From: Bordetella sp. H567
Lineage (GTDB): Bacteria; Pseudomonadota; Gammaproteobacteria; Burkholderiales; Burkholderiaceae_B
Assembly: GCF_001704295.1 (NCBI RefSeq)
Contig: NZ_CP012334.1
Location: 756,084 to 820,083 of the forward strand
Direction: 5' to 3'
Length of the DNA stretch: 64,000 bases
Of this stretch, positions 4,236 through 24,641 are shown one piece after another (the stretch's first letter is position 1; each line of letters opens with the position of its first letter). Both the position numbers and the translations under genes were made by a program. The notes under the pieces were generated by a model that was not told where the DNA came from, searched no databases, and worked only from the letters and a program-made list of their open reading frames with translations.

Positions 4236-4263
4236 TGGAGGCCTCCTCTTTCGTATGGGGGCT

Positions 4264-6465: not shown

Positions 6466-6535
6466 GCTGGCATCCTCGGGCGGGGAAGCGCTCCATGATG
6501 CCATTCTTGCGCGGCCCCGGCCAGCGCGAGGCTGC

Positions 6536-6556
6536 TTCCAGCGTTAACAGGCCCTA
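6536..6556 (-). repeat. 3'-end repeat, copy 1 (starts at the TAG stop of the lyase gene)
   Basis: Read leftward from the stop codon, the sequence begins TAGGGCCTGTTAACGCTGG. Closely related sequences begin exactly at the TAG stops of two other genes in the window (20099 plus strand, 20147 minus strand). The shared placement at stop codons suggests a dispersed 3'-flanking repeat rather than coding conservation, because the three proteins are unrelated. Confidence 0.55.
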
Positions 6557-7564
6557 GTGCTTTTCCTTGATCACGAACGACTCCTTGGCGCCGTGATACT
6601 TGCGTTCCAGTTCCGCCTCCGTCAGCAGGCTGGCTTCCAGTTCGTCGATAAAGGCATACCCCATCAGCGAGGTAATGTCCTCGATCCCCACCAGCAGATC
6701 CGGACGGTCATGCCGGGTGCCGGATACCGCGCTGTCCATCAACAGGTCCAGCGCCTTGCCCATCGCCATCAGCGCGGCCGCGGGCAGCATCCGGGCATAG
6801 CTGACGCGCGCCACGCCCATGGCCTGCAGTTCCACGGGCGTGAGCAGCGGCGTGGTGGGACGCGAACGCACGCCGAAGCCCATATTGATGCTGACGGGCG
6901 CCTTCACCGCGTCCACGAAGCGCTTGATATCGTCGGCCGAGGCGATGGCGTCGGGATACACCATGTCGGCCCCCGCGGCCAGGTACATCCTGGCGCGTTC
7001 GATCGCCTTGTCCAGGCCTTCCACCGCGATGGCGTCGGTACGGGCGTTGATGATGAAGCCGGCGTTGCGCTTTGCCCGCGCGGCGGCCTCGATTTTCTGG
7101 GCGGCTTCGCGCGCGTCCAGGACCTCCTTGCCGCGCATATGACCGCAGCGCTTGGGGTTTACCTGGTCTTCGATATTGATCCCGACCAGTCCCGCTTCCT
7201 CGAAGTACTGGACGGTGTGATAGACCGTCACCGCGTTGCCGTAGCCCGTATCCGCGTCCGCCATCACCGGGATGGAGACCGAACGCGCGATGTGCTGACA
7301 GGCGTTGGCGTTTTCCAGCAGCGACATGATGCCGATGTCCGGCTGGGAGAAGCGGGAATTGGACGTGGCCGATCCGCTGATGGCCGCTGCCTGGAAGCCT
7401 TTGCGTTCCGCCATGCGCGCGCTGTAGCCGTCATAGATGCCCGGCGCGACGATGATCTTGCCGGACTTCAGCATGTCGCGCATGCGCTGGATCTTGTCGG
7501 CCTGGCTGACCGGATGGGCGATGTTGTTGGGAAAACCTGGGGTATTCGGGGTGTCGTTGCTCAT
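6554..7564 (-). CDS. Isocitrate lyase/PEP mutase superfamily carboxyl-acid lyase
   Basis: A 336-residue (beta/alpha)8 enzyme. IIVAPGIYDGYSARMAERKGFQAAAISG (about 36-63) is the substrate-loop region, ADADTGYGNA (about 105-114) carries the Mg-binding aspartates, and NPKRCGHMRGKEV has the K[KR]CGH signature with the catalytic cysteine of isocitrate, methylisocitrate and dimethylmalate lyases. It is longer than 2-methylisocitrate lyase (about 295), and the C-terminal extension is unassigned. The ATG at 7564 follows an A/G-rich stretch and is 13 bases from the upstream amidohydrolase, so the two are co-transcribed. It would cleave a branched hydroxy-diacid to pyruvate or glyoxylate plus a diacid; the exact substrate is inferred only at class level. 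Confidence 0.85.
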   Translation of the reverse strand: MSNDTPNTPGFPNNIAHPVSQADKIQRMRDMLKSGKIIVAPGIYDGYSARMAERKGFQAAAISGSATSNSRFSQPDIGIMSLLENANACQHIARSVSIPVMADADTGYGNAVTVYHTVQYFEEAGLVGINIEDQVNPKRCGHMRGKEVLDAREAAQKIEAAARAKRNAGFIINARTDAIAVEGLDKAIERARMYLAAGADMVYPDAIASADDIKRFVDAVKAPVSINMGFGVRSRPTTPLLTPVELQAMGVARVSYARMLPAAALMAMGKALDLLMDSAVSGTRHDRPDLLVGIEDITSLMGYAFIDELEASLLTEAELERKYHGAKESFVIKEKH

Positions 7565-7577
7565 GGTGTTTCTCTTT

Positions 7578-8552
7578 TTAATCAAGTAGACCGGGGGAAA
7601 ACCCGTAAAGTCGCGCCGGATTGTCGACCAGAATGCGGTGCCGCGCCTGCGCATCGGGCGCCCACAGCGCCAGGGCGTCCAGCAGCGCGGCATCGCTGGG
7701 CATGACCCCGTGGAAGGAGGAATGTGGCCAGTCGCTTCCCCACAGCATGCGGTGCGGGGCGGCATCGACCAGTTCGCGGGCGAAGGGCGCCAGGCTGGGA
7801 TACGGCGCGGCGGGGTCGTCAAAGCGGTTCGGTGCGGACAGCTTGAGCCAGCAGGCGCCGCCCCGCAATAGCGCCAATAGGGTACGCCCGCCGGCGTCGG
7901 CGGCGCCCGCCGACAGCCGCACGCGCGCGAAATGGTCCAGCACCACCGGTACGGGCAGCGCGCGGATCCATTCGGCCAGCCGCAGGAGTTCCGCGCCCGC
8001 CACGTGCAATTGCAGGTGCCAGCCCAAAGGCGCGATGCGGCCGGCCAGCCGATCCAGCGCGCGCAGGCGGTCCGCCAGGGGCAGCGCGTCGCCAGGGCGG
8101 CCTTCAGGCGTGCCGCGCAGATGGGCGCGGACGCCGCGGACGCCCGCATCGTGCAGCAGCGCCAGCGTCGCGTCGGAGATGCCCGCGTCCGCCAGCGCCA
8201 CGCCGCGCGCCTGGATGCCGGCCTGCTCCAGGGCCCGCATGCCGTCCAGCGTCAAGCGGTTGTCGTGGTACAGCGTGGGCTGGACCAGCACGGCGCGCGT
8301 CAGTCCCAGGCTCCCCAGCATGCGGATGTAGGCCTGCACGCCGGTGCCGGCGGCCGGGGTATAGCGGCGCGGTTCCCGATAAGGATAGGCCGGTGGGCCG
8401 CCGAAGACATGGGCGTGGCAGTCGCAGGCCCCGGCCGGCACGGCAAAGCCGGGCTGCTGGCCGGCCGGCAGGGGCGCCGGGCAGGGCGGTGGGCCGCCGT
8501 CGGCATGGGCGGGGGCCGCGTGGGCGTCGGCGCTTGCGGATTCAGCGGACAT
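7578..8552 (-). CDS. Amidohydrolase-family (TIM-barrel) hydrolase, second copy
   Basis: A roughly 324-residue amidohydrolase_2 protein resembling 2-pyrone-4,6-dicarboxylate lactonase. AGACDCHAHVFGGPPAYPY is the HxH metal motif, VVLDHFARVRL and HLQLHVAG supply further histidines, and RMLWGSDWPHSS gives the late Asp (GSDWPH). A proline/alanine-rich N-terminal tail of about 35 residues precedes the barrel. The start is uncertain: the ATG at 8552 is preferred because the upstream option at 8642 overlaps the MFS gene by 50 bases. It is a paralogue of the hydrolase at 9979, both flanking the transporter in one operon, suggesting sequential ring-opening or lactone-hydrolysis steps. Confidence 0.82.
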   Translation of the reverse strand: MSAESASADAHAAPAHADGGPPPCPAPLPAGQQPGFAVPAGACDCHAHVFGGPPAYPYREPRRYTPAAGTGVQAYIRMLGSLGLTRAVLVQPTLYHDNRLTLDGMRALEQAGIQARGVALADAGISDATLALLHDAGVRGVRAHLRGTPEGRPGDALPLADRLRALDRLAGRIAPLGWHLQLHVAGAELLRLAEWIRALPVPVVLDHFARVRLSAGAADAGGRTLLALLRGGACWLKLSAPNRFDDPAAPYPSLAPFARELVDAAPHRMLWGSDWPHSSFHGVMPSDAALLDALALWAPDAQARHRILVDNPARLYGFSPGLLD

Positions 8553-8592
8553 GGGCGGGCTCGGGAGCGGGAAGCGGATCCACGATGGCGAT

Positions 8593-9924
8593 TCATTTTC
8601 CTTGCAGGGTGGCGGTCTGCATCGTCCTGCGCGGCGTGGCATGGGCCAGCGGCAACGCCAGCAGGACCAGCAGTGAGATCAGCGACATGGCGGCCACGGA
8701 CAGCAGGCCGCCCTGGAAGCTGCCGGTTTCCTGGCGGATCGCGCCGATCAGCCAGGGCGCGAACAGCCCCGACAGCGCGCCCAGGCAGTTGATGTAGGCG
8801 ATGCCGCCGGCGGCGGTGCGCGCATCCAGGAAGGCGCTGGGCAGCGACCAGAACACCGGCAAGGCACCGAACACGCCCAGCGACGCGACGGCGAAGGAGG
8901 CAAGCCGGGCGACAGGCTCATCGAAGACGGCCGACGCCACGAAGCCCGCGGTGGCCAGCAGCAGCGCGGCGGCGGCGTGCCACTTGCGCTCGGCATGGCG
9001 GTCGGAATGCCGGCCGAACAGCACCATGCCGATGGCGCCCGTCAGGTAGGGAATGGCGGTGACGAAGCCGGTCTGCGTGTTGGACAGGCCGAAACCCTTG
9101 ACGATCTGCGGCAGCCAGAACGACATCGTCTGGTGCAAGGCCGTGGTTCCGAAGTAGATGACCACCAGCGCCAGCACCCGCGGGTCGATGAAGGCGCGCA
9201 GCATATTGCCGCGCGGCGCCACGCCGGCCTGGTCGCGGCGTAGCGCCTCCTCGCGCATCTGGCTGGCGATCCAGGCGCGTTCCGCGTCCGTCAGCCAGCG
9301 GGCCTCATCGGGACGGTCGGTGAGCCACACCAGCAGGACGATGCCCAGCACCACGGCGGGCAAGGCTTCCAGGATGAATAGCCACTGCCAGCCTTGCAGC
9401 CCCAGCGCATCCAGCCGCAGCAGCAGCCCGGACAAGGGGGCGCCGATCAGGCTGGACAGCGGGATCGCCACCATGAAGTAGCCGATCATGCGGGCGCGGT
9501 ATTGCGGTGGAAACCAGAGCGTCAGGAAATAGATGATGCCGGGGAAGAAGCCGGCTTCCGCGGCGCCCAGGATGCTGCGCATGACGTAGAAGCCGGTGGC
9601 ACCCGTGATGAAGGCCGTGCCCGCCGACACGATGCCCCAGGTAATCATGATGCGCGCCAGCCAGCGCCGCGCGCCGAAGCGCGAGAGCGCCAGGTTCGAG
9701 GGGACTTCGAAAATGCAGTAGGTGGCGAAGAAAATGCCGGCGCCGAAGCCGAACTGCGCCGGCGTGATGCCCAGGGCGCTGTTCATCGACAGCGCGGCGA
9801 AGCCCACGTTGACCTTGTCCAGGTAGGACACGAAGTAGCAGACGATCAGTAGCGGAACGAAGCGCCGTGTGATTTTATCGATCGCGCCTTGTTCGGGGGT
9901 GGGGGTGGATAACGAGGCTTGCAT
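8593..9924 (-). CDS. MFS transporter, anion:cation symporter family
   Basis: A 443-residue, 12-helix major facilitator. VPLLIVCYFVSYLDKVNVGFAAL near the N-terminus, FGAGIFFATYCIFEVPSNLALSRFGARRWLARIMITWGIVS with the loop 2-3 signature, and the central charged loop DRPDEARWLTDAERAWI are characteristic of the ACS family (phthalate, tartrate, glucarate and 4-hydroxyphenylacetate importers). The ATG at 9924 has GGAGGAG immediately upstream. It sits between two amidohydrolases and before the lyase, so it is the likely uptake system for the substrate of that pathway. Confidence 0.88.
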   Translation of the reverse strand: MQASLSTPTPEQGAIDKITRRFVPLLIVCYFVSYLDKVNVGFAALSMNSALGITPAQFGFGAGIFFATYCIFEVPSNLALSRFGARRWLARIMITWGIVSAGTAFITGATGFYVMRSILGAAEAGFFPGIIYFLTLWFPPQYRARMIGYFMVAIPLSSLIGAPLSGLLLRLDALGLQGWQWLFILEALPAVVLGIVLLVWLTDRPDEARWLTDAERAWIASQMREEALRRDQAGVAPRGNMLRAFIDPRVLALVVIYFGTTALHQTMSFWLPQIVKGFGLSNTQTGFVTAIPYLTGAIGMVLFGRHSDRHAERKWHAAAALLLATAGFVASAVFDEPVARLASFAVASLGVFGALPVFWSLPSAFLDARTAAGGIAYINCLGALSGLFAPWLIGAIRQETGSFQGGLLSVAAMSLISLLVLLALPLAHATPRRTMQTATLQGK

Positions 9925-9978
9925 GGGTCTCCTCCGCTGCCTTGCGGCGATGGCGGCGCTTTGCTGCGCCGTCCGTTG

Positions 9979-10839
9979 TCATGGGTGGGCGGCAAGGGGC
10001 CGGCGAGCCCGCGCGAAGCCGAATACGCGGGCCGGTGTATCGCGCAGCACCACGTCGCGCAAGCGGCGTTGCGGTAGCCATGCGGACAGCCAGTCCAGGC
10101 AGTCGGCGTAGCGTATGCCGCCGCCATGCGCTTCATGGCCGACCCACGGAAAATCGCTGCCCCACATCAGCCGCTGCGGCCCGCCCGCGTCCAGCAGCGC
10201 GTCGACGTAGCGGCGCGGCTCCGCGCCCCCCAGGCGATAGGGCGCCGAGAGCTTCACCCACGCCTGGCCGGCCCGCACGGCCTTGAGCACCTGCACGAAT
10301 CCCGGCCCGGATACGCCCTGTTCGGGATCCGGGCAGCCGAAATGATCCAGCACCACGTCCACCCCATGGTCGACCAGGCGCGGCAGCACGCGGGCGGTGG
10401 GCGCGTCCTCCAGGAACAACTCCACATGCAGTCCCAGCGCGCGGACGTGGCGCAGCAGCCCGGCATAGGCCGGCGTATCGATGTCGGGCAGGGTAGCGCG
10501 GCGCACCCAATTCAGCCGGATCCCGGCCACGCCCATGTCGCGCATGCCGGCCAGCGTTTCGACGTCGATGGCCGGATCGACGATGGCCGTGCCGGCAAGC
10601 CGTCCCGGATAGCGGCTCAGCGCATCCAGCAGCAAGGTGTTGTCGGTGCCCAGGAAGCTGGGAGCCGTCAGGACGCCGTGCGACAAGCCGTGCGCGTTCA
10701 GCAGACCGATGAATTCGTCGACGTCGACATCGCGATGCGGCGCCGAGTGGCGCTCCGGAACCAGCCGCGCCGCCTGCCGCATCACATGTGCGTGGGCATC
10801 GACGCCGGTCACCGCCATCACGTCTGCTGTCGCTTCCAT
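9979..10839 (-). CDS. Amidohydrolase-family (TIM-barrel) hydrolase, first copy
   Basis: About 286 residues. VTGVDAHAHVMRQ is the N-terminal HxH, LHVELFLED and VDVVLDHFGCPDP carry the second histidine set, and QRLMWGSDFPWVGHE the terminal Asp. It is the same amidohydrolase_2 type as the gene at 7578. The first gene of the leftward operon, it lies 54 bases before the MFS transporter and is divergent from a LysR regulator. Two starts are possible (ATG 10839 or ATG 10872). I prefer 10839 because 10872 would place the coding sequence across the 12-bp palindrome at 10871. Neither has a strong ribosome site. Confidence 0.8.
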   Translation of the reverse strand: MEATADVMAVTGVDAHAHVMRQAARLVPERHSAPHRDVDVDEFIGLLNAHGLSHGVLTAPSFLGTDNTLLLDALSRYPGRLAGTAIVDPAIDVETLAGMRDMGVAGIRLNWVRRATLPDIDTPAYAGLLRHVRALGLHVELFLEDAPTARVLPRLVDHGVDVVLDHFGCPDPEQGVSGPGFVQVLKAVRAGQAWVKLSAPYRLGGAEPRRYVDALLDAGGPQRLMWGSDFPWVGHEAHGGGIRYADCLDWLSAWLPQRRLRDVVLRDTPARVFGFARARRPLAAHP

Positions 10840-10870
10840 GTTTTGGATTATGTGATAGGGTTTCCGATTC

Positions 10871-10882
10871 ATCCAATTGGAT
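10871..10882. promoter_or_regulatory. 12-bp palindrome between LysR gene and hydrolase operon
   Basis: ATCCAATTGGAT is a perfect 12-bp palindrome in the 72-base space between the divergent LysR gene (10912) and the hydrolase operon (10839). The surrounding bases are AT-rich relative to the window. Its position fits an operator for the adjacent regulator, though it is shorter than a typical LysR T-N11-A box; function is inferred from placement. Confidence 0.45.
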
Positions 10883-10911
10883 ATCTGGCCCTTCTTTGAT
10901 AAGGAATTCCA

Positions 10912-11820
10912 ATGAGGAAGTTTTCGCTCGCGCAGTTGGAGGCCTTCCTCTGGATCTGCCGGCTGGGCACCTTCCACGCGGCGGCGGAAAGGCTGAATTT
11001 GACGCAGCCGACGGTGTCGCTGCGGATACGCGAACTGGAATCGGCGCTGGGCGCGCGGCTGTTCGAGCGGCGCGGCAATGGCATGCGCCTGTCGGCCGAA
11101 GGCACCATCCTGCTGCGCTACGCGGAGCGCGGGCTGGACCTGTTCGACGAAATGGAGGACCGCCTGCGCACCGGCGACGTGCTGCAGGGCTCGCTGCGCC
11201 TGGGCGTCTCGGATACCTTCGCGATGACCTGCCTGCCTGAGCTGGTCGGCACGCTGGAAACCGGATATCCCCGCCTACGTATCGAGCTGACGGTGACCAA
11301 CAGCACCGTGCTGTCGGACCTGTTGATGCGCAAGAAGCTGGACCTGGCTTTCCTGACCGAGCCGCGCCAGCATCGCAGCATCGTGGTCGAGCCGCTGGGC
11401 AGCACCGACGTGGCGTGGGTGTCCAGCGCCAGTAAACCCATCGGTCCGGACGTGCTGCGGCCGCGCGACGTGCTTGGCGTTCCCATCCTGAGCGTGACGC
11501 CGCCCTCGCCGCTGAACGATCTGCTTATCGATTGGTGTACGTCGGATGGTTCGCCGCCACCTTCCTTCAGCACCTGCAACAACATCGCGGTCATTGCCAG
11601 GCTGGTGGTGGCGGGCGTGGCTGCCAGCGTGCTGCCCGTGTGCGTGGTGCAGCGCGAACTGGACTCGGGGCAGCTGAGGCGCTACCGGCAGGATCCGCCC
11701 TTGGCGCCGCGGGTCATGTGCGCGGCCTATCCCATGACGTCGCGCGGTTCGGGCATGGATGCGGTGCTGGGCATCGCGCGCGCGGCGTTTACCCACACGG
11801 GCCTGTTCGATCCCGTGTGA
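10912..11820 (+). CDS. LysR-family transcriptional regulator of the hydrolase/lyase operon
   Basis: 302 residues, a standard LysR length. The N-terminal helix-turn-helix is FSLAQLEAFLWICRLGTFHAAAERLNLTQPTVSLRIRELESALGARLFERRG (about 4-54). The rest is a periplasmic-binding-protein-like effector domain (LRLGVSDTFAMTCLPELVGTLE onward). The ATG follows AAGGA with correct spacing. It is divergent from the amidohydrolase-MFS-amidohydrolase-lyase operon with 72 bases between, the classic arrangement for a LysR activator responding to the pathway substrate. Confidence 0.9.
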   Translation: MRKFSLAQLEAFLWICRLGTFHAAAERLNLTQPTVSLRIRELESALGARLFERRGNGMRLSAEGTILLRYAERGLDLFDEMEDRLRTGDVLQGSLRLGVSDTFAMTCLPELVGTLETGYPRLRIELTVTNSTVLSDLLMRKKLDLAFLTEPRQHRSIVVEPLGSTDVAWVSSASKPIGPDVLRPRDVLGVPILSVTPPSPLNDLLIDWCTSDGSPPPSFSTCNNIAVIARLVVAGVAASVLPVCVVQRELDSGQLRRYRQDPPLAPRVMCAAYPMTSRGSGMDAVLGIARAAFTHTGLFDPV

Positions 11821-11902: not shown

Positions 11903-13369
11903 TCAGGAGCGGTCGCATTCGCGGGACATGCCCCGCGCGGGAACGGAGAGGATGGCCTCCACGGTCAGCCCCACGGCCAGCAGCTGGCGGTCGCCATGCG
12001 GCGGGCCGTCGATTTCGATGCCCACGGCATGGCCCTGCGCGGTATATCCCGCCGGCATGGCCAGGCCGGGCAGCCCGGCATTGCTGGCGGGCAGCGTATT
12101 GCGCAAGTAGGCATAGTTGGCCGAGACGGGCTGGTCGTTCAGCGCGACAATGCCATGGGTGGCCGCGAGCGGCCCCGCGACGGTGATGGTGGTCGGCAGG
12201 ACGATGCCGTCCAGCTTGTGCCGGCAGAACTGCTCCAGGAACATGCGCCGCAGTGCCGGGCGGTGTACGCGGATCGCGGTTTCGTAGCGTTCGGGGCAGA
12301 CGCGGTGCGGCGATCGTGGCGCGATGAAGTTCTCGATGAGTGCGCGGACATCGCCGCTTGCGGCATCGCGCGCCAGTTCCGCCATCGACACGCCGGTTCC
12401 ATGGCTGCGCAGATAGCGTTCCATGGCGGGCCAGAACTCCGCGAAGCCGATGGCCGCGCCCGTGGTTTCACTGAGTTCCGCCAGCCCGGGCATGTGCAGG
12501 TCGATCACGCACACGCCGCTGTCGCGCAGGCGTTGCAGCGCCGCCTGCGTCAGCCGCTGCACTTGGGCGTCCAGTCCTTCCAGGAAGAAATCGGGCACCA
12601 CGCCCAGCCGTATGCGTTCCGGCCTGGCCGCCACCACCGGCCGCTGCGAACCCGTAATGACCTGGTCCAGCAAGGCGACGTCCGCCACGGTGCGCGCCAT
12701 GGGGCCCGGTGTGTCCCGCGTGGGACTGACCGGCGCCACGCCGTCGCCGGGATATCGGCCCACGGTGGGACGCAGCCCGACGATGCCGTTCAATGCGGCA
12801 GGAATGCGGATCGATCCCGCGGTATCCGTGCCGATCGCGGCGTAGGCCATCCCGAGCGCCACGGCCACCGCGCTGCCGCCGCTGGAACCACCGGCCAGCC
12901 GCGATGGATCGCGGGCGTTGCGCACATCGCCGAAGCAGGCGTTGTGCGAGGTCACGCCCAAGGACAATTCATGCATGTTGGTCTTGCCGACAAACAGCGC
13001 GCCGGCCTCGCGCAAGCGGTGGACCAGCGTGGCGTCCCGCGCCGGCCGGAACCCCTGCAATCCTGGCGTCCCGGCGGTATTGGCGAAGCCCGCCACATGC
13101 ACGTTATCTTTCACTGCGATGGGCAGCCCCTGCAGGGATACGGGCGCCAGCGCGTCGCCCTGCATCGCGCCATGGGACCGTTCCAGTTCGGCGTCGTATG
13201 CCGTTGCAATGAAGGCGCCGAAGTCCCGGTATTGCGCATGGCGGCGTTGCGTCGCATCGACCAGGTCGCGCGGCTGTATGGCGCGCCGGCGCAGGGCCGC
13301 GATCGCCTGGGTGAGCGTGAAATCGGCAACATTCGCGGGCAGCGCCGCGGCGCGAAACGGCAGTAGCAC
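11903..13369 (-). CDS. Amidase-signature family hydrolase (last gene of the NRPS operon)
   Basis: 488 residues with the full amidase signature: GLPIAVKDNVHVAGFANTAGTP supplies the catalytic Lys, GGSSGGSAVAVALGMAYAAIGTDTAGSIRIPAA contains both the cis-Ser and the nucleophilic Ser (DTAGSIRIPA). The closest functional groups are indole-acetamide/mandelamide-type amidases. The start is GTG at 13369, with AAGGAAAG eight bases upstream; it begins 12 bases after the exporter gene stops. The position at the end of an oxygenase-NRPS-exporter operon suggests it trims or detoxifies an amide made by that pathway, but a primary-amide scavenging role is equally possible. Confidence 0.88.
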   Translation of the reverse strand: MLLPFRAAALPANVADFTLTQAIAALRRRAIQPRDLVDATQRRHAQYRDFGAFIATAYDAELERSHGAMQGDALAPVSLQGLPIAVKDNVHVAGFANTAGTPGLQGFRPARDATLVHRLREAGALFVGKTNMHELSLGVTSHNACFGDVRNARDPSRLAGGSSGGSAVAVALGMAYAAIGTDTAGSIRIPAALNGIVGLRPTVGRYPGDGVAPVSPTRDTPGPMARTVADVALLDQVITGSQRPVVAARPERIRLGVVPDFFLEGLDAQVQRLTQAALQRLRDSGVCVIDLHMPGLAELSETTGAAIGFAEFWPAMERYLRSHGTGVSMAELARDAASGDVRALIENFIAPRSPHRVCPERYETAIRVHRPALRRMFLEQFCRHKLDGIVLPTTITVAGPLAATHGIVALNDQPVSANYAYLRNTLPASNAGLPGLAMPAGYTAQGHAVGIEIDGPPHGDRQLLAVGLTVEAILSVPARGMSRECDRS

Positions 13370-13381
13370 GGGGTCTTTCCT

Positions 13382-14581
13382 TCAAGCAAGGCGCTTGCGA
13401 AGCGCGAGATAAAGCGCGAAGTTGGCCACGCCGAACCCCAGCATGGCGCAGCCGAACGCGGCTGGCCGATGCCCCGTCAGCGGGCCGATCATTTGCGCGG
13501 CCAGTGCCGCGCACGAAAGCTGCAGGAAGCCGGCCAGACCCGACGCGCTGGCGGCGTGGCCCGGCACGGCGCCGATCGCGGCCGCGGTGCCCAGCGGCAA
13601 CAGGAAACCGTTGGCGAAGGTCAGCGTGGATACACCGGCCAGCAGAAGCAGCGTGGACGCCGGCAACAGCGCCAGGCCGGCGCCCAGGGCCACGCCGGCG
13701 CCCAGGAACAGGCTGCAGCCCTGGCGGTACAGCGCCGCGCTGCCGATGCGCGGCGCCAGCGCGCGGGCGACGATATTGCCCGCCACATACGCGAGCGACA
13801 GGCTGATATAGGCATAGCCCAGCCCGCTTGCCGGCACGCCCTGCGCCAGCAACAGAAAGGCCGATTCCGACAGGTAGGCGAAATAGGCCGCTTGCGATAC
13901 CGCGATGATGGCAGCGTTGAGGCGGAAGTCCGGCGTCCGCAGCACCGTGCGGTAGGCAGCCAGCGCGCCGCGCGCCCATGCTGGCGAGGGCGCCGGCCTG
14001 GGCAGGCTTTCGGGCAAGGTCGCATAGACCAGCAGCCCCAGCGCGGCCCCGAACGCGGCGGTGAAGAGAAAGCATGCCTGCCAGCCCAGCGCGGCGTAGA
14101 GCAGCTGTCCCAGCACCGGGGCAAGCGCGGGCGACATGCCGACCACGATCGATACGCCCAGGAAGAAGTTGCGCAAGCTGTCGCCCTGATGGAAATCGGC
14201 CGCGATGGCGCGGCCGACCACGATGGCGCCGCAGGCGCCGGCGGCCTGCAGCGCGCGCCAGAACAGCACCGCGTCGTAGTGCTCGGTATAGGGAATGGCC
14301 AGGGACCCAAGGGCGTACGCGGCCAGCGACGCCAGCAGGGGAATACGCCGCCCGATCGCGTCCGACAGCGGTCCATGGATCAATTGGCCCACGGCCATGG
14401 CATACAGGAACACGCTGAACAAGGCCTGGATGTCGGTGGCCCCGCGGGCGTAGACCGCCGACAGGGCAGGCACGGCGGGCAGGAAGATGTCCGTGGCGAC
14501 GAAGCCGCACACGGACGTCAGGGCGACCAGCAGAGACAGATGGCGCGGCGCGGCCGCCGATGCGCCGCTAGGCCATGGCAT
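13382..14581 (-). CDS. MFS efflux transporter, Bcr/CflA type
   Basis: 399 residues with 12 predicted helices. VCGFVATDIFLPAVPAL in helix 1, FSVFLYAMAVGQLIHGPLSDAIGRRIPLL (motif A) and ACGAIVVGRAIAADF in helix 4 are typical of Bcr/CflA drug exporters. The gene overlaps the 3' end of the NRPS gene by 14 bases and ends 12 bases before the amidase, so it is translated with them. In this context it most likely exports the NRPS product. Confidence 0.87.
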   Translation of the reverse strand: MPWPSGASAAAPRHLSLLVALTSVCGFVATDIFLPAVPALSAVYARGATDIQALFSVFLYAMAVGQLIHGPLSDAIGRRIPLLASLAAYALGSLAIPYTEHYDAVLFWRALQAAGACGAIVVGRAIAADFHQGDSLRNFFLGVSIVVGMSPALAPVLGQLLYAALGWQACFLFTAAFGAALGLLVYATLPESLPRPAPSPAWARGALAAYRTVLRTPDFRLNAAIIAVSQAAYFAYLSESAFLLLAQGVPASGLGYAYISLSLAYVAGNIVARALAPRIGSAALYRQGCSLFLGAGVALGAGLALLPASTLLLLAGVSTLTFANGFLLPLGTAAAIGAVPGHAASASGLAGFLQLSCAALAAQMIGPLTGHRPAAFGCAMLGFGVANFALYLALRKRLA

Positions 14582-17174
14582 GGGCCGTCCTCTGCGTCGA
14601 ACGCTGGATCGCGGCTTCGATCAGGACGGCGACGGACGCGGCAACCGGTTGCCGATATACCGTGTAGTGGTCGGCGGGCACGTCCTGCACGTGCAGCCAC
14701 TTCAACAGGGCCGGCCATCCTTGCAGGCTGTCGCGGGTGTTGCCGGTGCAACGTATGAACAGCGACTGGCCTTCGAAGGCGTCGCGCGGCGTGTGCGTTT
14801 CTGCCGCCTGGTTGTTGGCGATCCACATGGCCAGGCCCTGTTCGACGTCGCGCAGCGTGGCGTCCGCGGGCAGGTGCCCGCCACGGATGCCCATATCCCG
14901 CAGCAGCACATTGCGCTGGCCGACCGGCATGGCGGCCAGCGCGTTGCGGGTCGGCGCCTGCGCGCCGCCGTTGACCAGCTTGCGCGCATAACTGGCGATG
15001 AAGTCCAGGGTATCCGCGCCGGTGGGCCGGCTGATGTAGGTATCCAGCAGCACCAGCAAGGCCGGCACCTTGCCTTGCGACTGCAGGTGGACGGCCATCT
15101 CGTAGGCGACATTGCCGCCGAAGCTGTAGCCGCACAGCACCAGCGGGCCGTCCGGCTGCCGTGCCAGCACGTGTTCGGCATAGCGTCGCGCCATGCGCCG
15201 CAGGTCGGTTTCATAGGCGCCGCCGTCGTCCAGCGGCTCGCACGCGATGCCGTAGGATTCCATGGCCTGCGCGGATTCCGCGATGTCCCGGTAGCACCAG
15301 ATGCCGCCGCCGGCCGGATGCACGAACCACACCGGTTGCGCGCCTGCCGGTCCACCCAGCCTGGCGGCCGCCATCGGCAGCGGGCGCGTGCCGGCGTCGT
15401 GGACGGCGGCTTCCACCATCCGGATCAAGGCGCCCAGCGTGGGCTGTGCGAACAAGGCGCTGGCCGACAGCTGCAGATCGAAGTCCCGGTTCACCGTGGC
15501 GATCAACTGCATGGCAAGCAGGGAGTGGCCACCGGCACGGAAGAAATGGCTGTCGTCGCCGCTGCCATGCGGCAGCAATCCGGACCAGGCGGCCCGCACA
15601 CGCGCCGCCACGTCGTGCGCGGCCGCGTCTCGCGTACCGGATACGGCATCGGCCGTGGCTGCCCCAGGCGCTTGCGTGGCGTCCGGCGGGGCCGCGGGCA
15701 CCGCGCGCGCGGTGCTGAGCGCCCGTACGGCGGCGCGGTCCCGCTTGCCGTTGGGCAATACCGGAAACCGTGCCAGCCGGGTATAGACCAGCGGTTGCAT
15801 GAAGCCGGGCAGCGCCGACGCCATGGCCTGCCGCGCGGCGGCCTCGTCCCAGTCGGCCGCATCGATATCCAGGAACACTTCGATCTGCTGCGCATCGTTG
15901 ACGATGGCGACGGCGCCGCGCAGCGCCGGTGTCGATCGCGCGAGCGCATGTTCGATCTCTTCCAGTTCGATCCGCAGTCCGCGCAGCTTGACCTGGTTGT
16001 CGGTGCGTCCCAGGAAGACATAATCGCCCTGGGCGTCGCGCCGGACGCGGTCGCCCGAGCGGTAGGTGCGGCCGCCGGTATCCGATGCGCCGAAGCGCGC
16101 CGCGGTCAATCCCGGCTGGCCGTGGTAGCCGCTGGCCACGCCGGGCCCGTCGATGATCAATTCGCCCGCACCATCCGTCCCGTCGGCCGCATCGATGTGA
16201 AAGGTCGTGCCCGGCAGCGGACGGCCCAGCGGGACCGGGTCGCGCGTATCGGTGTCGCCGGGCGTGCAGATATGGAAGGCGCATTGCACGGTGGCTTCGG
16301 TCGGCCCGTAGAGATTGACGACCGGGATGGGCAGATGGGCCTGGATGCGGCGCACCAGCGGCCGCGGCAAGGGTTCGCCGCCGCTGAACAGCAGGCGCAG
16401 GCTGGCCAGGTCGCGCAGCGCCGCGGGTTCGGCCAGCGCGTGCAGCATGGCGGGCACGGCTTGCAGCAGGGTGGCGCCGTGCTGGCGTGCCGCATGCGCG
16501 ATGGCCTGCGGCGTGTTGTCGGCGATGACCATGGTGGCGCCGACCATCAGCGGCGCCAAATACTCCCAGACCGACGCGTCGAAGGCCGTGGGGGTTTTGT
16601 GGAGGAACACGTCTTCGGCGCTGCACGCGAATTCGCGGATGAACCAGTTCATGTGGTAGGCCAGGGCGTCGCGGGAAACCACGACGCCCTTGGGCCGGCC
16701 GGTGGAGCCGGACGTATAGAGCAGGTAGGCGGGGTGCCCGCCATCGGCCGCTGTGCCGGCCAGGATGCTTGGTTCGTCCCCGGCCGCGGACGGCGCCGCA
16801 AGGACCTCGATGGCCAGCGTCTCCGGCGCGCCGAAGCCGCGATGCTCGCTGTCGCCGATGACGTAGCGGGCTTGGCTGTCCGCGATGTACAAGGCCAGCC
16901 GGTCTTCCGGGTAGGAAGGATCCAGCGGCAAGTACGCCGCGCCGCATTTCAGGATACCCAGCATCGCCACCACCCATTCGATGGAGCGGTCCAGCGCGAT
17001 GCCCACCATGGTGCCCGGGCCGGCGCCCAGTGCGTGCAGGCGGGCCGCCACCCGGTCGGAGGCGATTCGTAGTTCCGCGTAGGAGCAGGCCTGGTGGCCT
17101 TGCCGGATGGCGGGATGGGCCGGCAAGGCGCGCGAGGCAAGATCGAAGTGATCGAGAGGGAAGGACATGCGCAT
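14568..17174 (-). CDS. Single-module NRPS, A-T-TE, predicted glutamine-activating
   Basis: 868 residues and no condensation domain. Adenylation domain: LLYTSGSTGRPKG (151-163), FDASVWEY (198-205), NLYGPTEAT (287-295), YRSGD (371-375), lysine K477. Carrier domain: FFRAGGHSLL with the phosphopantetheine Ser551. Thioesterase: GYSFGG with Ser684, Asp711 and His836. Reading the specificity pocket against GrsA gives D199 A200 W203 Q238 F263 G265 L288 V296 Q297 K477 (DAWQFGLVQK). That is close to the DAWQFGLI[D/N]K code I recall for glutamine-loading modules such as lichenysin module 1 and indigoidine synthetase. It starts 14 bases after the oxygenase gene, with AGGGGG before the ATG. One amino acid, released or cyclised by the TE, is the expected output. 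Confidence 0.9.
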   Translation of the reverse strand: MRMSFPLDHFDLASRALPAHPAIRQGHQACSYAELRIASDRVAARLHALGAGPGTMVGIALDRSIEWVVAMLGILKCGAAYLPLDPSYPEDRLALYIADSQARYVIGDSEHRGFGAPETLAIEVLAAPSAAGDEPSILAGTAADGGHPAYLLYTSGSTGRPKGVVVSRDALAYHMNWFIREFACSAEDVFLHKTPTAFDASVWEYLAPLMVGATMVIADNTPQAIAHAARQHGATLLQAVPAMLHALAEPAALRDLASLRLLFSGGEPLPRPLVRRIQAHLPIPVVNLYGPTEATVQCAFHICTPGDTDTRDPVPLGRPLPGTTFHIDAADGTDGAGELIIDGPGVASGYHGQPGLTAARFGASDTGGRTYRSGDRVRRDAQGDYVFLGRTDNQVKLRGLRIELEEIEHALARSTPALRGAVAIVNDAQQIEVFLDIDAADWDEAAARQAMASALPGFMQPLVYTRLARFPVLPNGKRDRAAVRALSTARAVPAAPPDATQAPGAATADAVSGTRDAAAHDVAARVRAAWSGLLPHGSGDDSHFFRAGGHSLLAMQLIATVNRDFDLQLSASALFAQPTLGALIRMVEAAVHDAGTRPLPMAAARLGGPAGAQPVWFVHPAGGGIWCYRDIAESAQAMESYGIACEPLDDGGAYETDLRRMARRYAEHVLARQPDGPLVLCGYSFGGNVAYEMAVHLQSQGKVPALLVLLDTYISRPTGADTLDFIASYARKLVNGGAQAPTRNALAAMPVGQRNVLLRDMGIRGGHLPADATLRDVEQGLAMWIANNQAAETHTPRDAFEGQSLFIRCTGNTRDSLQGWPALLKWLHVQDVPADHYTVYRQPVAASVAVLIEAAIQRSTQRTAHAMA

Positions 17175-17188
17175 GGCGACCGCCCCCT

Positions 17189-18190
17189 TTAGCCGTTGAC
17201 CACGCGGGGCCGATCGTCCGCGAAGTGCTTCGCATGCTGAGCCAGCGAGCGTACGTTGACCGTTTTCATCAACCAGCGATTGCGCAAGGCATCCGGGTCG
17301 GGCACCTGTCCCACGTCCTTGTTGTGCAGGCAATCGTTGTTGGCCGCGCCGACCAGGTCCCCGGGCAGGATCTGGACGCGTCTCTTGAGCTTGTGCAAGG
17401 CGGTGATCAGCGCTTCGACCGCGCGCGTGGCGCGGGGAGTGAGCCCGCGCGTCCGGTTCTCGAAAAAGCGGATATCCGTCGGCGTCGCGCCGCCCAGCAC
17501 GGGGTGCACCTCGGCTTCGCCCAGCTGCACCTTGCTGTTGTGCAAGGTCAGGTCGTCATAGGGCGTATGAAACTCTTGCCGGCGCAGGTCGGCGCAGACG
17601 TCCTCGCCCAGTTCGGCCAGCAGTTCCTTGTTGCGGACGTAGGAGGTATAGACCTGGTTTTGCGGCGAAGCGCGCAGGCCCAGGATGTTGACCCAGTCCG
17701 GCCGCACGAAATGATTGGCCAGGTCCTTGTGGAAATAGATGGGCTTCATCGCCTTCTGCGATTGGGTATCCGCCAGGCTTTTCTTGGGATGTATGTCCTG
17801 GAAGATGTCGCCGTCGTTCACGTTGGCGTAGCCGATGGGCTCCTGGCCCATCAGCCTGGCGTACAGCAGCAGGAAGGCTTCGGCGACGTAGGTGCGCTTG
17901 CGGGCGCGCTTGTCGCCGACCGGGTCGTCGAAATCCAGGTAGGGCAGTGCCTCGTCGATGGGGCAGTTGCGCAGGACGACATAGGGGTCTTCATAGCTGT
18001 CGGCGTCGCGGCGTGCAGCGCAGCAGTCCAGGAAAGCGTCGGGCACGTGGCCATCGCGGATCACGGCGTCGACATGCGCTTCGAACTGGCCATAGCGGGC
18101 ATAGGGATTCACATCGATCGCCGTCAGCGCGCGCTGCAGGCGGGCGGAATCCTGAGGGGTGAAACAAAAGTCCACGGTTAATTCCATCAT
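17189..18190 (-). CDS. Fe(II)/2-oxoglutarate oxygenase, amino-acid hydroxylase-like (TauD/clavaminate-synthase fold)
   Basis: 333 residues. IYFHKDLANHFVRPDWVNILGLR places the metal-binding H154-x-D156. NNDCLHNKDVG gives the distal His289, and RNRWLMKTVNV supplies R305, the usual 2-oxoglutarate-binding arginine. This order and spacing match the VioC/AsnO/lysine-hydroxylase group, which hydroxylates free or carrier-bound amino acids. The ATG-ATG at 18190/18187 follows GAGG. It is the first gene of the operon with the NRPS, exporter and amidase, so it probably hydroxylates the amino acid loaded by the NRPS. Assignment to a particular amino acid is inference. Confidence 0.78.
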   Translation of the reverse strand: MMELTVDFCFTPQDSARLQRALTAIDVNPYARYGQFEAHVDAVIRDGHVPDAFLDCCAARRDADSYEDPYVVLRNCPIDEALPYLDFDDPVGDKRARKRTYVAEAFLLLYARLMGQEPIGYANVNDGDIFQDIHPKKSLADTQSQKAMKPIYFHKDLANHFVRPDWVNILGLRASPQNQVYTSYVRNKELLAELGEDVCADLRRQEFHTPYDDLTLHNSKVQLGEAEVHPVLGGATPTDIRFFENRTRGLTPRATRAVEALITALHKLKRRVQILPGDLVGAANNDCLHNKDVGQVPDPDALRNRWLMKTVNVRSLAQHAKHFADDRPRVVNG

Positions 18191-18595
18191 GGGGAGACCT
18201 CGTGCGGCAGGAAGGCCGGATGGGTGCATCCGGTTTGGCCGCGGCAGAGTAGGAGAGCCGCCGCGCCTGAGTCGGTCCCGGAATGGAATATCGGACAGCA
18301 TTACTTCAGGCACTGTCGATCTCGGACTGATCGCGTGTCCCCTGACATCACCGTTATCAGAGGTATCCCTAGTTCTCGCGTCAGGCTACCGTCAGCTACG
18401 ATTTATTCAGTTAGAAGTCAGTTTACTGTGGGTTGTTTGAAAGATATGCGGCCAGGGCAGCGGCCCGCCGTCGCGCCAGCGCGCTTTGCCGCGGCGCAAT
18501 AAGAGCAGCTCCGGGCGGACCGCCGTCACGGTGCACCGCTCCCCCGGGACGCTTCAATGTCCCGGGACAAACAAATCAACGACAAGGGAGGCAGC
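18191..18595. promoter_or_regulatory. Divergent promoter region between the NRPS operon and tctA, with leader hairpin
   Basis: This 405-base stretch separates two divergent transcripts. Its centre (about 18380-18440) is clearly more AT-rich than the flanks and presumably holds both promoters; I cannot fix the -10/-35 elements. Just before tctA, CCCGGGAC (18543-18550) and GTCCCGGG (18559-18566) form a perfect 8-bp hairpin with an eight-base loop. There is no T-tract, so it is a leader structure rather than a terminator. No riboswitch fold is recognisable. Confidence 0.5.
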
Positions 18596-20101
18596 GTGGA
18601 GCTTCTACAGAATCTTGCACTTGGCTTTTCCGTGGCCGTCTCGCCGGAAAACCTTCTCTATGCGCTGCTCGGCTGCATCCTCGGCACTCTGGTGGGCGTG
18701 TTGCCCGGCCTGGGGCCCGTGCCGACGATCGCGATGCTGCTGCCCATCACCTATGTGCTGCCGCCCATCGCCGGCCTGATCATGCTGGCGGGGATTTACT
18801 ACGGGACGCAGTATGGCGGCTCCACCACGGCCATCCTGGTGAATCTCCCGGGCGAAACCTCGGCGGTGGTCACCACGCTGGACGGCCACCAGATGGCCCG
18901 CAACGGGCGCGGTGGGGCCGCGCTGGCCCTGGCCGCCATCGGCTCTTTCTTCGCCGGCACGGTGGCCACCACCATCATCGCGGCGTTTGCCCCGCCGTTG
19001 GCCGAAGTGGCGTTCAAGTTCGGCCCGGCCGAGTATTTCTCGCTGATGGCGTTGGGGCTGATCGGTGCCGTGGTGCTGGCGTCCGGATCCATCGTCAAGG
19101 CCATCGCCATGATCATCCTGGGCCTGCTGCTGGGCATGGTCGGCACGGACGTCAATTCTGGTGTCGCGCGCTACGACTTCGGCATTCCCGAACTGCAGGA
19201 CGGCATCGATTTCGCCATCGTGGCCATGGGCGTGTTCGGCTTCGCCGAAATCATGACCAACCTCGAATTGAAGGACAAGCGCGTCGAGATCTCCGACAAG
19301 GTGGGCTCGCTCTATCCCAGCCGGCGCGAATTCCGCGAGGCGGCGCCGGCCATCCTGCGAGGCACGGCGCTCGGGTCCTGCCTGGGCATCCTGCCCGGCG
19401 GCGGGGCGACACTGTCGGCATTCGCGTCCTACACGCTGGAGAAGAAGGTATCGCGCCAGCCGGAGCGCTTCGGCAAGGGGCATCCGGCCGGACTGGCCGG
19501 GCCGGAATCCGCCAACAACGCGGGCGCGCAGACGTCGTTCATTCCGCTGCTGACGCTGGGCATTCCGGGCAACGCGGTGATGGCGCTGATGGTGGGCGCC
19601 ATGACGATCCACAACATCCAGCCCGGGCCGCAGGTCATGTCCAGCCACCCGGACCTGTTCTGGGGCCTGATCGTGTCGATGTGGATCGGCAACCTGATGC
19701 TGGTGATATTGAACCTGCCGCTGGTGGGCCTGTGGATCAAGCTGCTCAAGGTGCCGTACCGGATCCTCTTTCCCGCCATTCTGGTGTTCTGCACCATAGG
19801 CGTCTATTCCTTGAACTACAACGCCTTCGATATCTTCGTCACGGCGGTATTCGGCGCCGTCGGATATCTCTGGGCCAAGCTCAAGTGCGAAGGTGCGCCG
19901 CTGCTGTTGGGCCTGGTCCTGGGCCCGATGATGGAAGAAAACTTCCGCCGCGCGCTGCTGCTGTCGCGCGGCGACTTCCTTACCTTCGTCCAGCGCCCGC
20001 TGTCGGCCAGCCTGCTTGGCGCCGCGCTGGCGCTGGTGGTCATCGTCGCGCTGCCCGCGATACGCAAAAAGCGCGAGGAAACCTTCGTCGAGGAAACCTA
20101 G
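18596..20101 (+). CDS. tctA: Tripartite tricarboxylate transporter permease, large subunit (TctA)
   Basis: About 501 residues and highly hydrophobic (about 10-12 helices). GTLVGVLPGLGPVPTIAMLLP (early), GIYYGTQYGGSTTAILVNLPGE and LGILPGGGATLSAFASYTLEKK are the conserved pore-region motifs of TctA. With a periplasmic TctC/Bug receptor and the small subunit TctB it imports carboxylates using the proton or sodium gradient. The start is taken as GTG 18596, five bases after AAGGGAGG; an ATG at 18557 lies in the leader hairpin and has no ribosome site. No tctB or receptor gene adjoins it, so it must pair with partners elsewhere, possibly the Bug proteins at 30284, 52904 or 53998. Confidence 0.88.
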   Translation: MELLQNLALGFSVAVSPENLLYALLGCILGTLVGVLPGLGPVPTIAMLLPITYVLPPIAGLIMLAGIYYGTQYGGSTTAILVNLPGETSAVVTTLDGHQMARNGRGGAALALAAIGSFFAGTVATTIIAAFAPPLAEVAFKFGPAEYFSLMALGLIGAVVLASGSIVKAIAMIILGLLLGMVGTDVNSGVARYDFGIPELQDGIDFAIVAMGVFGFAEIMTNLELKDKRVEISDKVGSLYPSRREFREAAPAILRGTALGSCLGILPGGGATLSAFASYTLEKKVSRQPERFGKGHPAGLAGPESANNAGAQTSFIPLLTLGIPGNAVMALMVGAMTIHNIQPGPQVMSSHPDLFWGLIVSMWIGNLMLVILNLPLVGLWIKLLKVPYRILFPAILVFCTIGVYSLNYNAFDIFVTAVFGAVGYLWAKLKCEGAPLLLGLVLGPMMEENFRRALLLSRGDFLTFVQRPLSASLLGAALALVVIVALPAIRKKREETFVEET

Positions 20102-20147: not shown

Positions 20148-22607
20148 GGCCTCCGCCGCCGGGCCCGTCGTGCCTTGCAGCGCCAGCCGCTGCAGGCACT
20201 CCATATCGAAGGTCTCCACGCACTTGGCGACTTCGTCGTAGAAACCCGTGTAGCGCGGGTACAGCACGCGCGTCTCGACGACCCAGTTCTCGATTTCGGA
20301 CAGCTCGCCGTCGCGCGCGAGCCGGGACAGGACCAGCCGCGCCGCAAGGGGCGGCGCCTCCAGCTGGGGCGCGGCTGCCGCGTACGCCGGCGTGCGGCCC
20401 ATCGGGCGGGTGGCGACGACGGACGGCCCGATCAGTGTGATGGGGATGACCAACGAGAACCGGTTGCCGCGCTCCGGTGAGCTTTCCAGCTGGACGGTGC
20501 CGCCCATCCCGTTGGCGATGCGTTCGACGATGAACAGGCCCAGCCCCAGGCCCGATTCGCGGCGGTGTAGCTGCCTGAACGCGGCGAAAATCCCGGCCTG
20601 GTCTTCGGCCGCGATGTGAGCTCCGTTATTGAATACGCCAAGTTCAAGCTCGGCCTGCCGGTCGGCGTGGCGCCGTAATCGCGCTTCCAGACGTACCGTG
20701 CCTTCGGTGGTGAATTTCGCGGCGTTGCCCAGCAGGTTCAGCACCGCTTGCCGCAACCGCTTCCCGTCCAGCCAGACCCGGGCGGGCAGCGTCGGCGCGG
20801 GCAGGTATTCGAAGGTGTTCCGTTGATGTGCGCACAGTGCGATGCCGAAGTGCGCCAGCTCCTCCAGCAACGCCGGAAGATCGACTTCCTCAGGATGCAG
20901 TGTGAAGGGCTGCAGCTCTGATTTGCTGTAGGCGAGTACCTCGTCGATCAGGCCGAACTGATGGCCGATGCTGCGTTCGATCACGTCCAGGTAGGCATGC
21001 TGTGCCGGCGCGGCCGCTTGCCGCAACAGCCGGATATAGCCGCTGATGATGGCCAGCGGCGCGCGCAGGTCATGGCCGACATAGCTCAGGATCGTGGCTT
21101 GGCGGTCGGCATCCCGCGCGGGCAGGATGCGCGGCGCTACGGCCGGCGCAGCCGCCGTCGATCCATGCGTCGTCGCGGCGCGGGCAGCCTGGGGCGCCGT
21201 GTGGGCCGCGGCGCATGCGGGCCGGACGTCCGCCCCCGCGGGCCGTGCGCGATCCGCATCCGGCGCGCCGGCGGCGGGCGGCAGGGCGCGTGGGCGGCCG
21301 GTCGCCAGGGTGCGCCGTCGTCGCGATTGTCCCGGTTGACGCGCCGCCCACAGCGTCAGCACGCTCAGGTTGCCCATCGTCGCCAATACCGCCAGGACCG
21401 GCGAGCCGGAACGCAGGATGAATGAAACGGGGATCAGCGGCGTTTCCAGGCGTGGACCCGTCGTCCTGATGAGGCCATCGGCGGCGATGAAGCAGGCGGA
21501 CAAGCCCAGCAGCAGGGCGGTGGAGCTCGCTCCCCGTGGCAGCGGCGGGGACAGCGCGGTGCGCGCACGCCGCGCCAGCAGCATGGCCGATACCAGCATG
21601 TATGCCGCGAACGCGCAGCACAGCGCCTGGAACAGCCCGACGGCAACAGGCAGTGGCAACCGTGCGGGACCGCGAGGCAGCAGCATGGCCAGCAGCAGGC
21701 ATCCGGCCAGCATCGCGGCCACGGCGGGATACACCCGCGCACCGGGTATCGGGGCAGTGTCGCGGCGCGCCGCGCTGCGCACGAACATCGCGCATAGCAC
21801 CAGGTAGACGACGTCCAGCGTCAGTTCAAGCCGATAGCCCCAGGTGCCGTCCAGCGGCCATAACAGGCGTTGCAGGTATTCGCGGGCCGTGGCCTCACGC
21901 CACAGCGCCGCTGCGGCAATCACGGCTATCCATACGAATTGACCTCGCCGCGTGATGACGCCGGCCAGCAGCATGCACCAGACCAGTGCGCCGGCCACGC
22001 CGACCAGGACGCCGTCCGCACTGGTGGTCATCGTGACGGCCGCGCTGTACAGGCGCGAGGTGTACAGCACCGGGTTCAGTGCAGAGGGGCTATGGCTTTT
22101 GATTTTTACCCACACCGATACCGTTTCGCCGGGCGCCATCACGAAAGGGAGGATGGGAAAGCGGCCTAGATCCGCCTGCTGCAGGATAGGCACCAGCGTG
22201 CCGGCCCTGGCGTGCCGGATTTCATTCCCTTGCCGTAGGTAGAAATCGACATTCTCGAGATGTGGCGCGCCTGCCACCAGCACCAGGCGCCGCGCCGCGC
22301 CGGTGGTATTGGTCATCGCGATGCTCAGCCACCAGGCGGAATGCGGGTGCGTGTTCGTTCGCATTCTGCTTTCCGCCGGGTGAAAAAAATCCGGGTTCTC
22401 GTCTGCGAGTTTTCGTACTTGGTCGAAGTCGAGTGTGCCGGTACGGTCTTCGTAGACCATGGCGGAGGAACGGAGGGGAAGGGCGAATTCCTGGGCGCTG
22501 GGCAGGGGCAGCATGTCGGCGGCGCCCGCGTGGGTCGCCATCCCTATGCCGAGCAAGGAGGCGAGGGTCAGGATGCCGTTGACAAAGCGTGTTCTGAGTG
22601 CCCGCAT
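20145..22607 (-). CDS. 7TM-DISM sensor histidine kinase
   Basis: 820 residues: signal peptide (1-31), extracellular 7TMR-DISMED2-like beta domain (about 35-195, including WWLSIAMTNTTGAARRLVLVAGAPHLENVDFYL), seven-helix membrane block (about 200-420), a disordered linker, HisKA with phospho-acceptor H512 (SYVGHDLRAPL), and HATPase with N box NLLGNAAKF and G2 box GLGLGL (686-690). The G1 box, normally D-x-G-x-G, reads NNGAH (660-664), so the adenine-contacting Asp and second Gly are replaced. The last 70 residues after the kinase are unassigned. No response regulator adjoins it. The ATG at 22607 is preferred because it starts the signal peptide. It is divergent from the aldehyde oxidoreductase operon. 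Confidence 0.83.
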   Translation of the reverse strand: MRALRTRFVNGILTLASLLGIGMATHAGAADMLPLPSAQEFALPLRSSAMVYEDRTGTLDFDQVRKLADENPDFFHPAESRMRTNTHPHSAWWLSIAMTNTTGAARRLVLVAGAPHLENVDFYLRQGNEIRHARAGTLVPILQQADLGRFPILPFVMAPGETVSVWVKIKSHSPSALNPVLYTSRLYSAAVTMTTSADGVLVGVAGALVWCMLLAGVITRRGQFVWIAVIAAAALWREATAREYLQRLLWPLDGTWGYRLELTLDVVYLVLCAMFVRSAARRDTAPIPGARVYPAVAAMLAGCLLLAMLLPRGPARLPLPVAVGLFQALCCAFAAYMLVSAMLLARRARTALSPPLPRGASSTALLLGLSACFIAADGLIRTTGPRLETPLIPVSFILRSGSPVLAVLATMGNLSVLTLWAARQPGQSRRRRTLATGRPRALPPAAGAPDADRARPAGADVRPACAAAHTAPQAARAATTHGSTAAAPAVAPRILPARDADRQATILSYVGHDLRAPLAIISGYIRLLRQAAAPAQHAYLDVIERSIGHQFGLIDEVLAYSKSELQPFTLHPEEVDLPALLEELAHFGIALCAHQRNTFEYLPAPTLPARVWLDGKRLRQAVLNLLGNAAKFTTEGTVRLEARLRRHADRQAELELGVFNNGAHIAAEDQAGIFAAFRQLHRRESGLGLGLFIVERIANGMGGTVQLESSPERGNRFSLVIPITLIGPSVVATRPMGRTPAYAAAAPQLEAPPLAARLVLSRLARDGELSEIENWVVETRVLYPRYTGFYDEVAKCVETFDMECLQRLALQGTTGPAAEA

Positions 22608-23611: not shown

Positions 23612-23620
23612 GAGAACACC

Positions 23621-24625: not shown

Positions 24626-24641
24626 CACAGGAGTCCGACTC

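Follow-up and report, generated by a model that had tools for sequence, protein, structure and literature searches.

A compact operon in a 64,000-nucleotide stretch of the Bordetella sp. H567 genome (contig NZ_CP012334.1, positions 756,084 to 820,083; hereafter the window) encodes an Fe(II)/2-oxoglutarate (2OG) oxygenase, a single-module nonribosomal peptide synthetase (NRPS) with adenylation (A), thiolation (T) and thioesterase (TE) domains, a major facilitator superfamily (MFS) exporter and an amidase-signature enzyme. It is a real and complete variant, without a condensation (C) domain, of an oxygenase-synthetase-exporter set that is also found in Bacillota. We see an even chance that it forms a small biosynthetic route to a hydroxylated, glutamine-derived metabolite. 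The narrower proposal that this product takes the imide form, a hydroxylated aminoglutarimide, is tentative and on balance doubtful. Direct results are the domain content, the catalytic motifs, the fold prediction, the structure of the operon and the finding that three Bacillota have oxygenase, synthetase and exporter genes in this order; the product is predicted.

The four genes lie on the minus strand from 18190 down to 11903 in the order given above. The spacings of 14, -14 and 12 bases were computed from the starts in Table 1, and longer in-frame starts exist for the oxygenase (GTG at 18313) and the synthetase (TTG at 17333). An earlier reading made from the sequence alone (the sequence-only reading) had described the same block with the same spacings, and the open reading frames and their coordinates agree with it. 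All four frames are complete, without internal stops, and contain the expected catalytic motifs.

Synthetase and proposed route

Pfam assigned AMP-binding (amino acids (AA) 15-351), PP-binding (525-587) and Thioesterase (614-713, the first half of the profile) to the synthetase. Neither a Condensation nor an Ox domain was found by Pfam in the 868 AA, and TIGR03605 had no match at an E-value of 0.001 anywhere in the window genome. The A-T-TE architecture without a C domain expected by the sequence-only reading was thus recovered. The A-domain code DAWQFGLVQK was derived by core-motif alignment, using a position numbering that we take to be the established one. It is identical at eight of ten positions to the code DAWQFGLIDK, listed for glutamine in PMC2866473; DAWQFGLINK is given as the glutamine code of an indigoidine-type enzyme in PMC3992020. 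Judged by this code, glutamine is the likely substrate of the A domain, as had been proposed. Three sites of the phosphopantetheinyl transferase family lie elsewhere in the genome, two of them in open frames of 260 and 298 AA.

As its code suggests, the A domain would activate L-glutamine, or hydroxyglutamine, and load it onto the T domain. The fold and family of the oxygenase suggest that it would hydroxylate the glutamine carbon chain, most likely at C3, before or after loading; AsnO, VioC and KDO1 hydroxylate their substrates at this position. Because there is no C domain, the TE would release a single residue. Ring closure through the side-chain amide to a hydroxylated 3-aminopiperidine-2,6-dione would be the best-precedented outcome, with hydrolysis and dimerisation as alternatives. 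The MFS protein would then export the product, and the amidase might open or trim one of its amides, either as a last step or for self-protection.

Oxygenase clade and its distribution

The oxygenase had no Pfam match at 1e-3. In structural comparison, its predicted model could be superimposed on KDO1, AsnO and VioC from end to end, in line with the AsnO/VioC-like oxygenase that had been placed first in the operon, and the structural alignments to structures of this type show 19-23% identity. By this predicted fold, the protein is a clavaminate-synthase-like Fe(II)/2OG oxygenase, for which amino acid hydroxylation is predicted. H154, D156, H289 and R305 are invariant in 33 aligned sequences and are likely the metal and 2OG ligands (2-His-1-carboxylate plus the 2OG arginine). 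Where the aligned chains of KDO1, AsnO and clavaminate synthase (CAS) have HxE, the window oxygenase has HxD. No substrate was read from the invariant FENRT stretch, since its register against the residues on the substrate side of these three enzymes varies by one to two positions from chain to chain.

Relatives were collected in one scan of 84,980 species with one genome per species, which found 103 relatives, of which 80 loci (L018-L097) were kept. As the scan relies on a pair of short peptide patterns, it misses relatives whose motifs have changed. Some loci end early at contig ends, gene calls in them are rough, and neighbour labels denote similarity to a few Pfam-scanned representatives. 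Identity to the window oxygenase over the best segment is 38-69% for L018-L056 and 31-37% for later loci, except for L060 (partial, 41%) and L061 (43%). The motif FHKDLANHFVRP is among those common to 38 compared oxygenases (the window, L018-L054 minus the partial L048, and L056), and nine other listed rows from L057 on have HNDR there. The oxygenase belongs to a compact, unnamed clade with its own invariant motifs, whose hosts are scattered over at least four phyla (Pseudomonadota, Actinomycetota, Bacillota and Myxococcota). More distant relatives lie on a Staphylococcus epidermidis plasmid (pML7049-5; L006, 5044-18648; 28% identity) and a plasmid of Streptomyces sp. NBC_01003 (L005, 1-13084; 34%) among similar gene sets of LeuA-like or carboxyltransferase, LeuCD, isochorismatase, cupin and aminotransferase genes.

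Within the family of the window genome, an oxygenase match was found in 4 of 268 genomes, namely the window genome itself and three with distant paralogues of 25-29% identity, which rules out an operon conserved in the genus. This patchy occurrence could be taken to mean that the operon is a silent or decaying relic. Incomplete forms occur in relatives: Trinickia dinghuensis (L048, 9839-10579) carries a truncated oxygenase, 69% identical to that of the window over residues 142-333 and fused to unrelated sequence, with an MFS gene following it, and the window TE had no match at an E-value of 0.001 in that genome. Of 36 genomes of the genus Bacillus, 2 (those of L049 and L054) contain a full oxygenase, and two more contain short fragments with a stop. 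For the window operon, however, a relic is highly improbable, as none of its four genes is truncated or lacks the expected motifs, and the G+C content at third codon positions (0.83-0.87) is close to that of the flanking genes (0.87-0.88).

A three-gene version in Bacillota

The sequence-only reading had suggested searching for the four-gene order in other genomes. All four window genes together were found in none of the 80 relative loci at an E-value of 1e-10, whereas the first three kinds of gene occur in the same order in Bacillus sp. SD075 (L049), Bacillus sp. ISL-34 (L054) and Marininema halotolerans (L045). In these loci, the oxygenase is followed by a synthetase of 1367-1383 AA and a gene of 413-416 AA. 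Pfam identified the synthetase of L049 as A-T-C-T-TE and the third gene of this locus as MFS_1. Over almost their full length, the synthetases of L054 and L045 are 93% and 38% identical to that of L049, and the third gene of either locus resembles the L049 MFS gene. All three A-domain codes are of the glutamine type (DAWQFGLIDK in L049 and L045, DAWQFGLVDK in L054). Thus, 3 of the 39 loci L018-L056 have a glutamine-coded synthetase immediately after the oxygenase, and an MFS gene after that. The sequence-only reading had named unlinked oxygenase and synthetase genes in relatives as evidence against itself; in these three loci, they are linked.

Of the relative-locus A domains compared with that of the window, those of L049, L054 and L045 match it best, and the four form one clade (support 97/98). 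The window TE also groups with the Bacillus and Marininema TEs, with a support of 89/84 that is below the strong class. The trees, of 17 and 24 rows, were built from sequences hand-picked from the relative loci, and the composition of several rows, Bacillus included, departs from the model. The window T domain scores higher against the second (T2) than against the first (T1) T domain of all three enzymes (119/58 in L049, 112/61 in L054, 99/57 in L045). Given the grouping of A and TE and the closeness of T to T2, the window synthetase looks like the Bacillus/Marininema form minus T1-C. The loci therefore share gene order, oxygenase clade, glutamine code and A and TE clades with the window, but differ by the extra T1-C; neither the window exporter nor the window amidase matches anything in them at 1e-10.

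The same relationship could suggest that the window TE couples two residues to a glutamine homodimer or diketopiperazine, taking over the role of the C domain in the Bacillus and Marininema enzymes. In its favour, both the A and the TE domain fall together with their counterparts in an enzyme of A-T-C-T-TE architecture, whose T2 the window T domain resembles. Since the window synthetase itself has no C domain, we consider this quite improbable.

Other partners of the oxygenase

In ten loci, the clade oxygenase is followed by an A-domain protein with a different code, which is DVRHFALLAK in L018, L019, L020, L026, L031, L032, L033 and L043, and DVRYFALLAK in L052 and L061. Pfam assigned A-T-C to the two such proteins scanned, those of L018 and L031; no paper in a literature search for DVRHFALLAK contained this code. 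Two ATP-grasp amino acid ligases follow in L031 (Pfam) as well as in L032 and L033 (by similarity). In other loci, genes for APH-like kinases, AurF-like proteins and class III aminotransferases adjoin the oxygenase.

Several of these results weigh against the proposed route. In other species, members of the same oxygenase clade adjoin acetolactate synthases, APH-like kinases or A-domain proteins whose code differs, and with partner enzymes changing in this way, the oxygenase substrate need not be glutamine but may be another amino acid. This variety of partners is the strongest argument against assuming glutamine. Moreover, the synthetases of L049 and L045 retain two T domains and a C domain in which HHxxxDG is present, which points to a dipeptide in those species. 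Finally, the window TE appears not to be of the indigoidine type, as it stands apart in the tree from the TEs of two 1297-AA A-Ox-T-TE enzymes, which have a long branch and were typed by architecture only. The comparison of A and TE domains with indigoidine synthetases proposed beforehand separates the TEs; the A domains are separate in the best tree, but a forced common grouping is not rejected (p-AU 0.395).

The near-invariant active-site motifs of the oxygenase beside varying partners (DVRHFALLAK A-domain proteins, in some loci together with ATP-grasp amino acid ligases; kinases; or aminotransferases) fit one constant oxygenase product. This could be explained by a Trojan-horse dipeptide, in which hydroxylation by the oxygenase supplies a second amino acid. 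The synthetase would couple this to glutamine, with the free amino acid acting as nucleophile in the TE reaction, and the amidase would later release the warhead. Such a route would require the window TE to catalyse amide formation between two molecules, and in Bacillus a T2 without its own A domain would have to be loaded; glutamine as common substrate is simpler. The dipeptide is regarded as rather unlikely, and a route to a hydroxylated glutamine derivative remains our preferred reading.

Acetolactate synthases are found beside the clade oxygenase in four unrelated host groups. Besides L020 and L047 (Table 1), they follow the oxygenase in L029, L030, L037, L040 and L041 and also occur in L035, L036 and L038; the calls rest on NCBIfam for L020, L036, L038, L040 and L047 and on similarity for the rest. 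That of L047 is paired with a small subunit, and its genome has two further copies above the cut-off. These neighbours possibly serve self-resistance or a biosynthetic step, while that of L020 may be a housekeeping pair; the L020 genome has two acetolactate synthase places with equal score, so that no extra copy is demonstrated. In the myxobacterial genomes L029, L037, L040 and L041 (L030 was left out), the best match was a 579-AA frame below the cut-off, which by its length is the cluster copy; this is as compatible with a role in biosynthesis as with one in resistance. As a self-resistance clue, acetolactate synthase does not carry over to the window: neither of the two copies above the cut-off in the genome is near the operon.

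Exporter and amidase

The exporter matches Pfam MFS_1. Its best NCBIfam match is TIGR00710 (Bcr/CflA) with 192.6 bits, below the cut-off of 200.9, and for this reason the Bcr/CflA exporter of the sequence-only reading was retained as Bcr/CflA-like. It had no match in the 80 relative loci at an E-value of 1e-10.

The amidase matches PF01425 with an E-value of 2.3e-92 and contains AVKDN at 85, GGSSGGS at 160 and DTAGSIR at 182, which we take to hold the Lys, cis-Ser and Ser of the catalytic triad. The enzyme class proposed earlier therefore holds, but an amidase in this place was seen in none of the relative loci. A single match was found in the 80 loci at 1e-10 (63 bits, L085, 9 kb from the oxygenase). 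This leaves some room for a catabolic gene that merely stands behind a three-gene operon. The best NCBIfam match is the general indoleacetamide hydrolase (508.6 bits versus a cut-off of 532), and amidases 29-46% identical occur in all 21 genomes searched, among the matches listed. Among these, the top match in each of five other genomes of the genus is 39-41% identical and the best elsewhere 46%. On the other hand, the amidase is separated from the exporter by 12 bases and followed by a convergent LysR gene, which ties it to the operon, so that an enzyme outside the pathway is possible but doubtful.

Genomic setting

A divergent TctA gene lies on one side of the operon and a convergent LysR gene on the other (Table 1). 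A simple scan found no sigma-70 match in the divergent intergenic stretch. Copies 91% and 87% identical to the TctA gene exist elsewhere in the same genome. A leftward block at 2529-10977, divergent from the LysR gene, looks catabolic, with genes for a lyase (Lyase_1/ASL), an epimerase, a DAO protein, a PEP-mutase/isocitrate-lyase-like protein, an MFS protein and an amidohydrolase. At 22598-29178, there is a three-subunit molybdenum hydroxylase set (2Fe-2S, FAD, MoCo) with an NrtR winged-helix-domain gene behind it. Between 36001 and 48000, the G+C content falls to 0.60-0.63, compared to 0.64-0.71 in 2-kb steps before 36 kb.

Table 1. Coordinates of the operon genes, synthetase domains, flanking features and acetolactate synthase genes of two relative loci.
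Feature	Sequence	Coordinates	Strand	Remarks
Oxygenase	Window	17189-18190	-	ATG start; Fe(II)/2OG oxygenase, predicted clavaminate-synthase/AsnO fold
Synthetase	Window	14568-17174	-	ATG start; single-module NRPS, A-T-TE, 868 AA
A domain	Window	15705-17132	-	Pfam core AA 15-351, C-terminal subdomain taken to about AA 490; code DAWQFGLVQK
T domain	Window	15414-15602	-	AA 525-587, GGHSL serine
TE domain	Window	14571-15335	-	from AA 614; candidates GYSFGG nucleophile, LLDTY acid, DHYT histidine
MFS exporter	Window	13382-14581	-	ATG start; Bcr/CflA-like
Amidase-signature enzyme	Window	11903-13369	-	GTG start
LysR gene	Window	10912-11820	+	convergent flank, behind amidase
Divergent intergenic stretch	Window	18191-18556		likely promoter region
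TctA gene	Window	18557-20101	+	divergent flank
Acetolactate synthase	L020	7128-9534		
Acetolactate synthase	L047	10586-12835		

Significance

The operon looks like a compact four-gene pathway with a predictable substrate. No description of the gene set or its product was found in the literature searched, which is weak evidence of absence since subscription papers were largely outside its coverage. The operon also draws attention to an unnamed oxygenase clade, members of which occur in at least four phyla beside varying partner enzymes. Should the product be the hydroxylated imide, the operon would offer an enzymatic entry to chiral glutarimides; the glutarimide 3-aminopiperidine-2,6-dione is also the pharmacophore of thalidomide-type drugs. 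A broader view, unlikely in our estimate, is that the operon is a dedicated natural route to the hydroxylated 3-aminopiperidine-2,6-dione and that the oxygenase marks a family of small antimetabolite pathways across phyla, all built on one hydroxylated amino acid but combining it with different partner enzymes. If the imide reading is false, the clade still provides one hydroxylase to assay and several clusters to explain together.

Comparison with known systems

With AsnO, VioC, KDO1, OrfP and clavaminate synthase, the window oxygenase shares the full-length fold, the His-x-acid...His arrangement and the 2OG arginine. It differs in its low sequence identity, in HxD in place of the HxE of KDO1, AsnO and CAS, and in the invariant motifs of its own clade. 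The A-T-TE domain order is shared with RalA and atromentin synthetase, which are furanone/quinone synthetases activating arylpyruvates. A domains for such aryl-alpha-keto acids lack the amino-group-binding Asp, whereas this residue is present in the window A domain (FDASVWE), which rules out a furanone synthetase of the RalA/atromentin type.

The ambABCDE cluster (AMB) is similar, as described in PMC4357302, in combining Fe(II)/2OG oxygenases with an NRPS holding L-Glu and a putative exporter. As described there, it differs from the window in two NRPSs, two oxygenases, a tripeptide precursor with alanines and a LysE-type exporter. The same paper also reports a T2 of AmbE that is loaded in trans.

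Indigoidine synthetases (BpsA, IndC, IdgS) share the single module with a glutamine-coded A domain, T and TE. The sequence-only reading regarded them as the nearest logic, but a special nearness lacks support: the window enzyme has no Ox domain, its TE falls into another clade together with those of Bacillus and Marininema, and it is accompanied by a separate 2OG oxygenase, an exporter and an amidase. A plain indigoidine synthetase is ruled out by the missing Ox domain and the other TE clade. According to PMC10989907, the TE of IdgS offloads and cyclises T-bound glutamine to (S)-3-aminopiperidine-2,6-dione, which IdgS with a dead Ox domain also makes. The same paper notes that the TEs of IdgS and PadE share only 21% identity, yet cyclise their substrates in a similar way, so the distance between TEs is no argument for or against this chemistry in the window. 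By analogy, a natural glutamine-coded A-T-TE enzyme without an Ox domain would be an arrangement like that of the Ox-dead IdgS.

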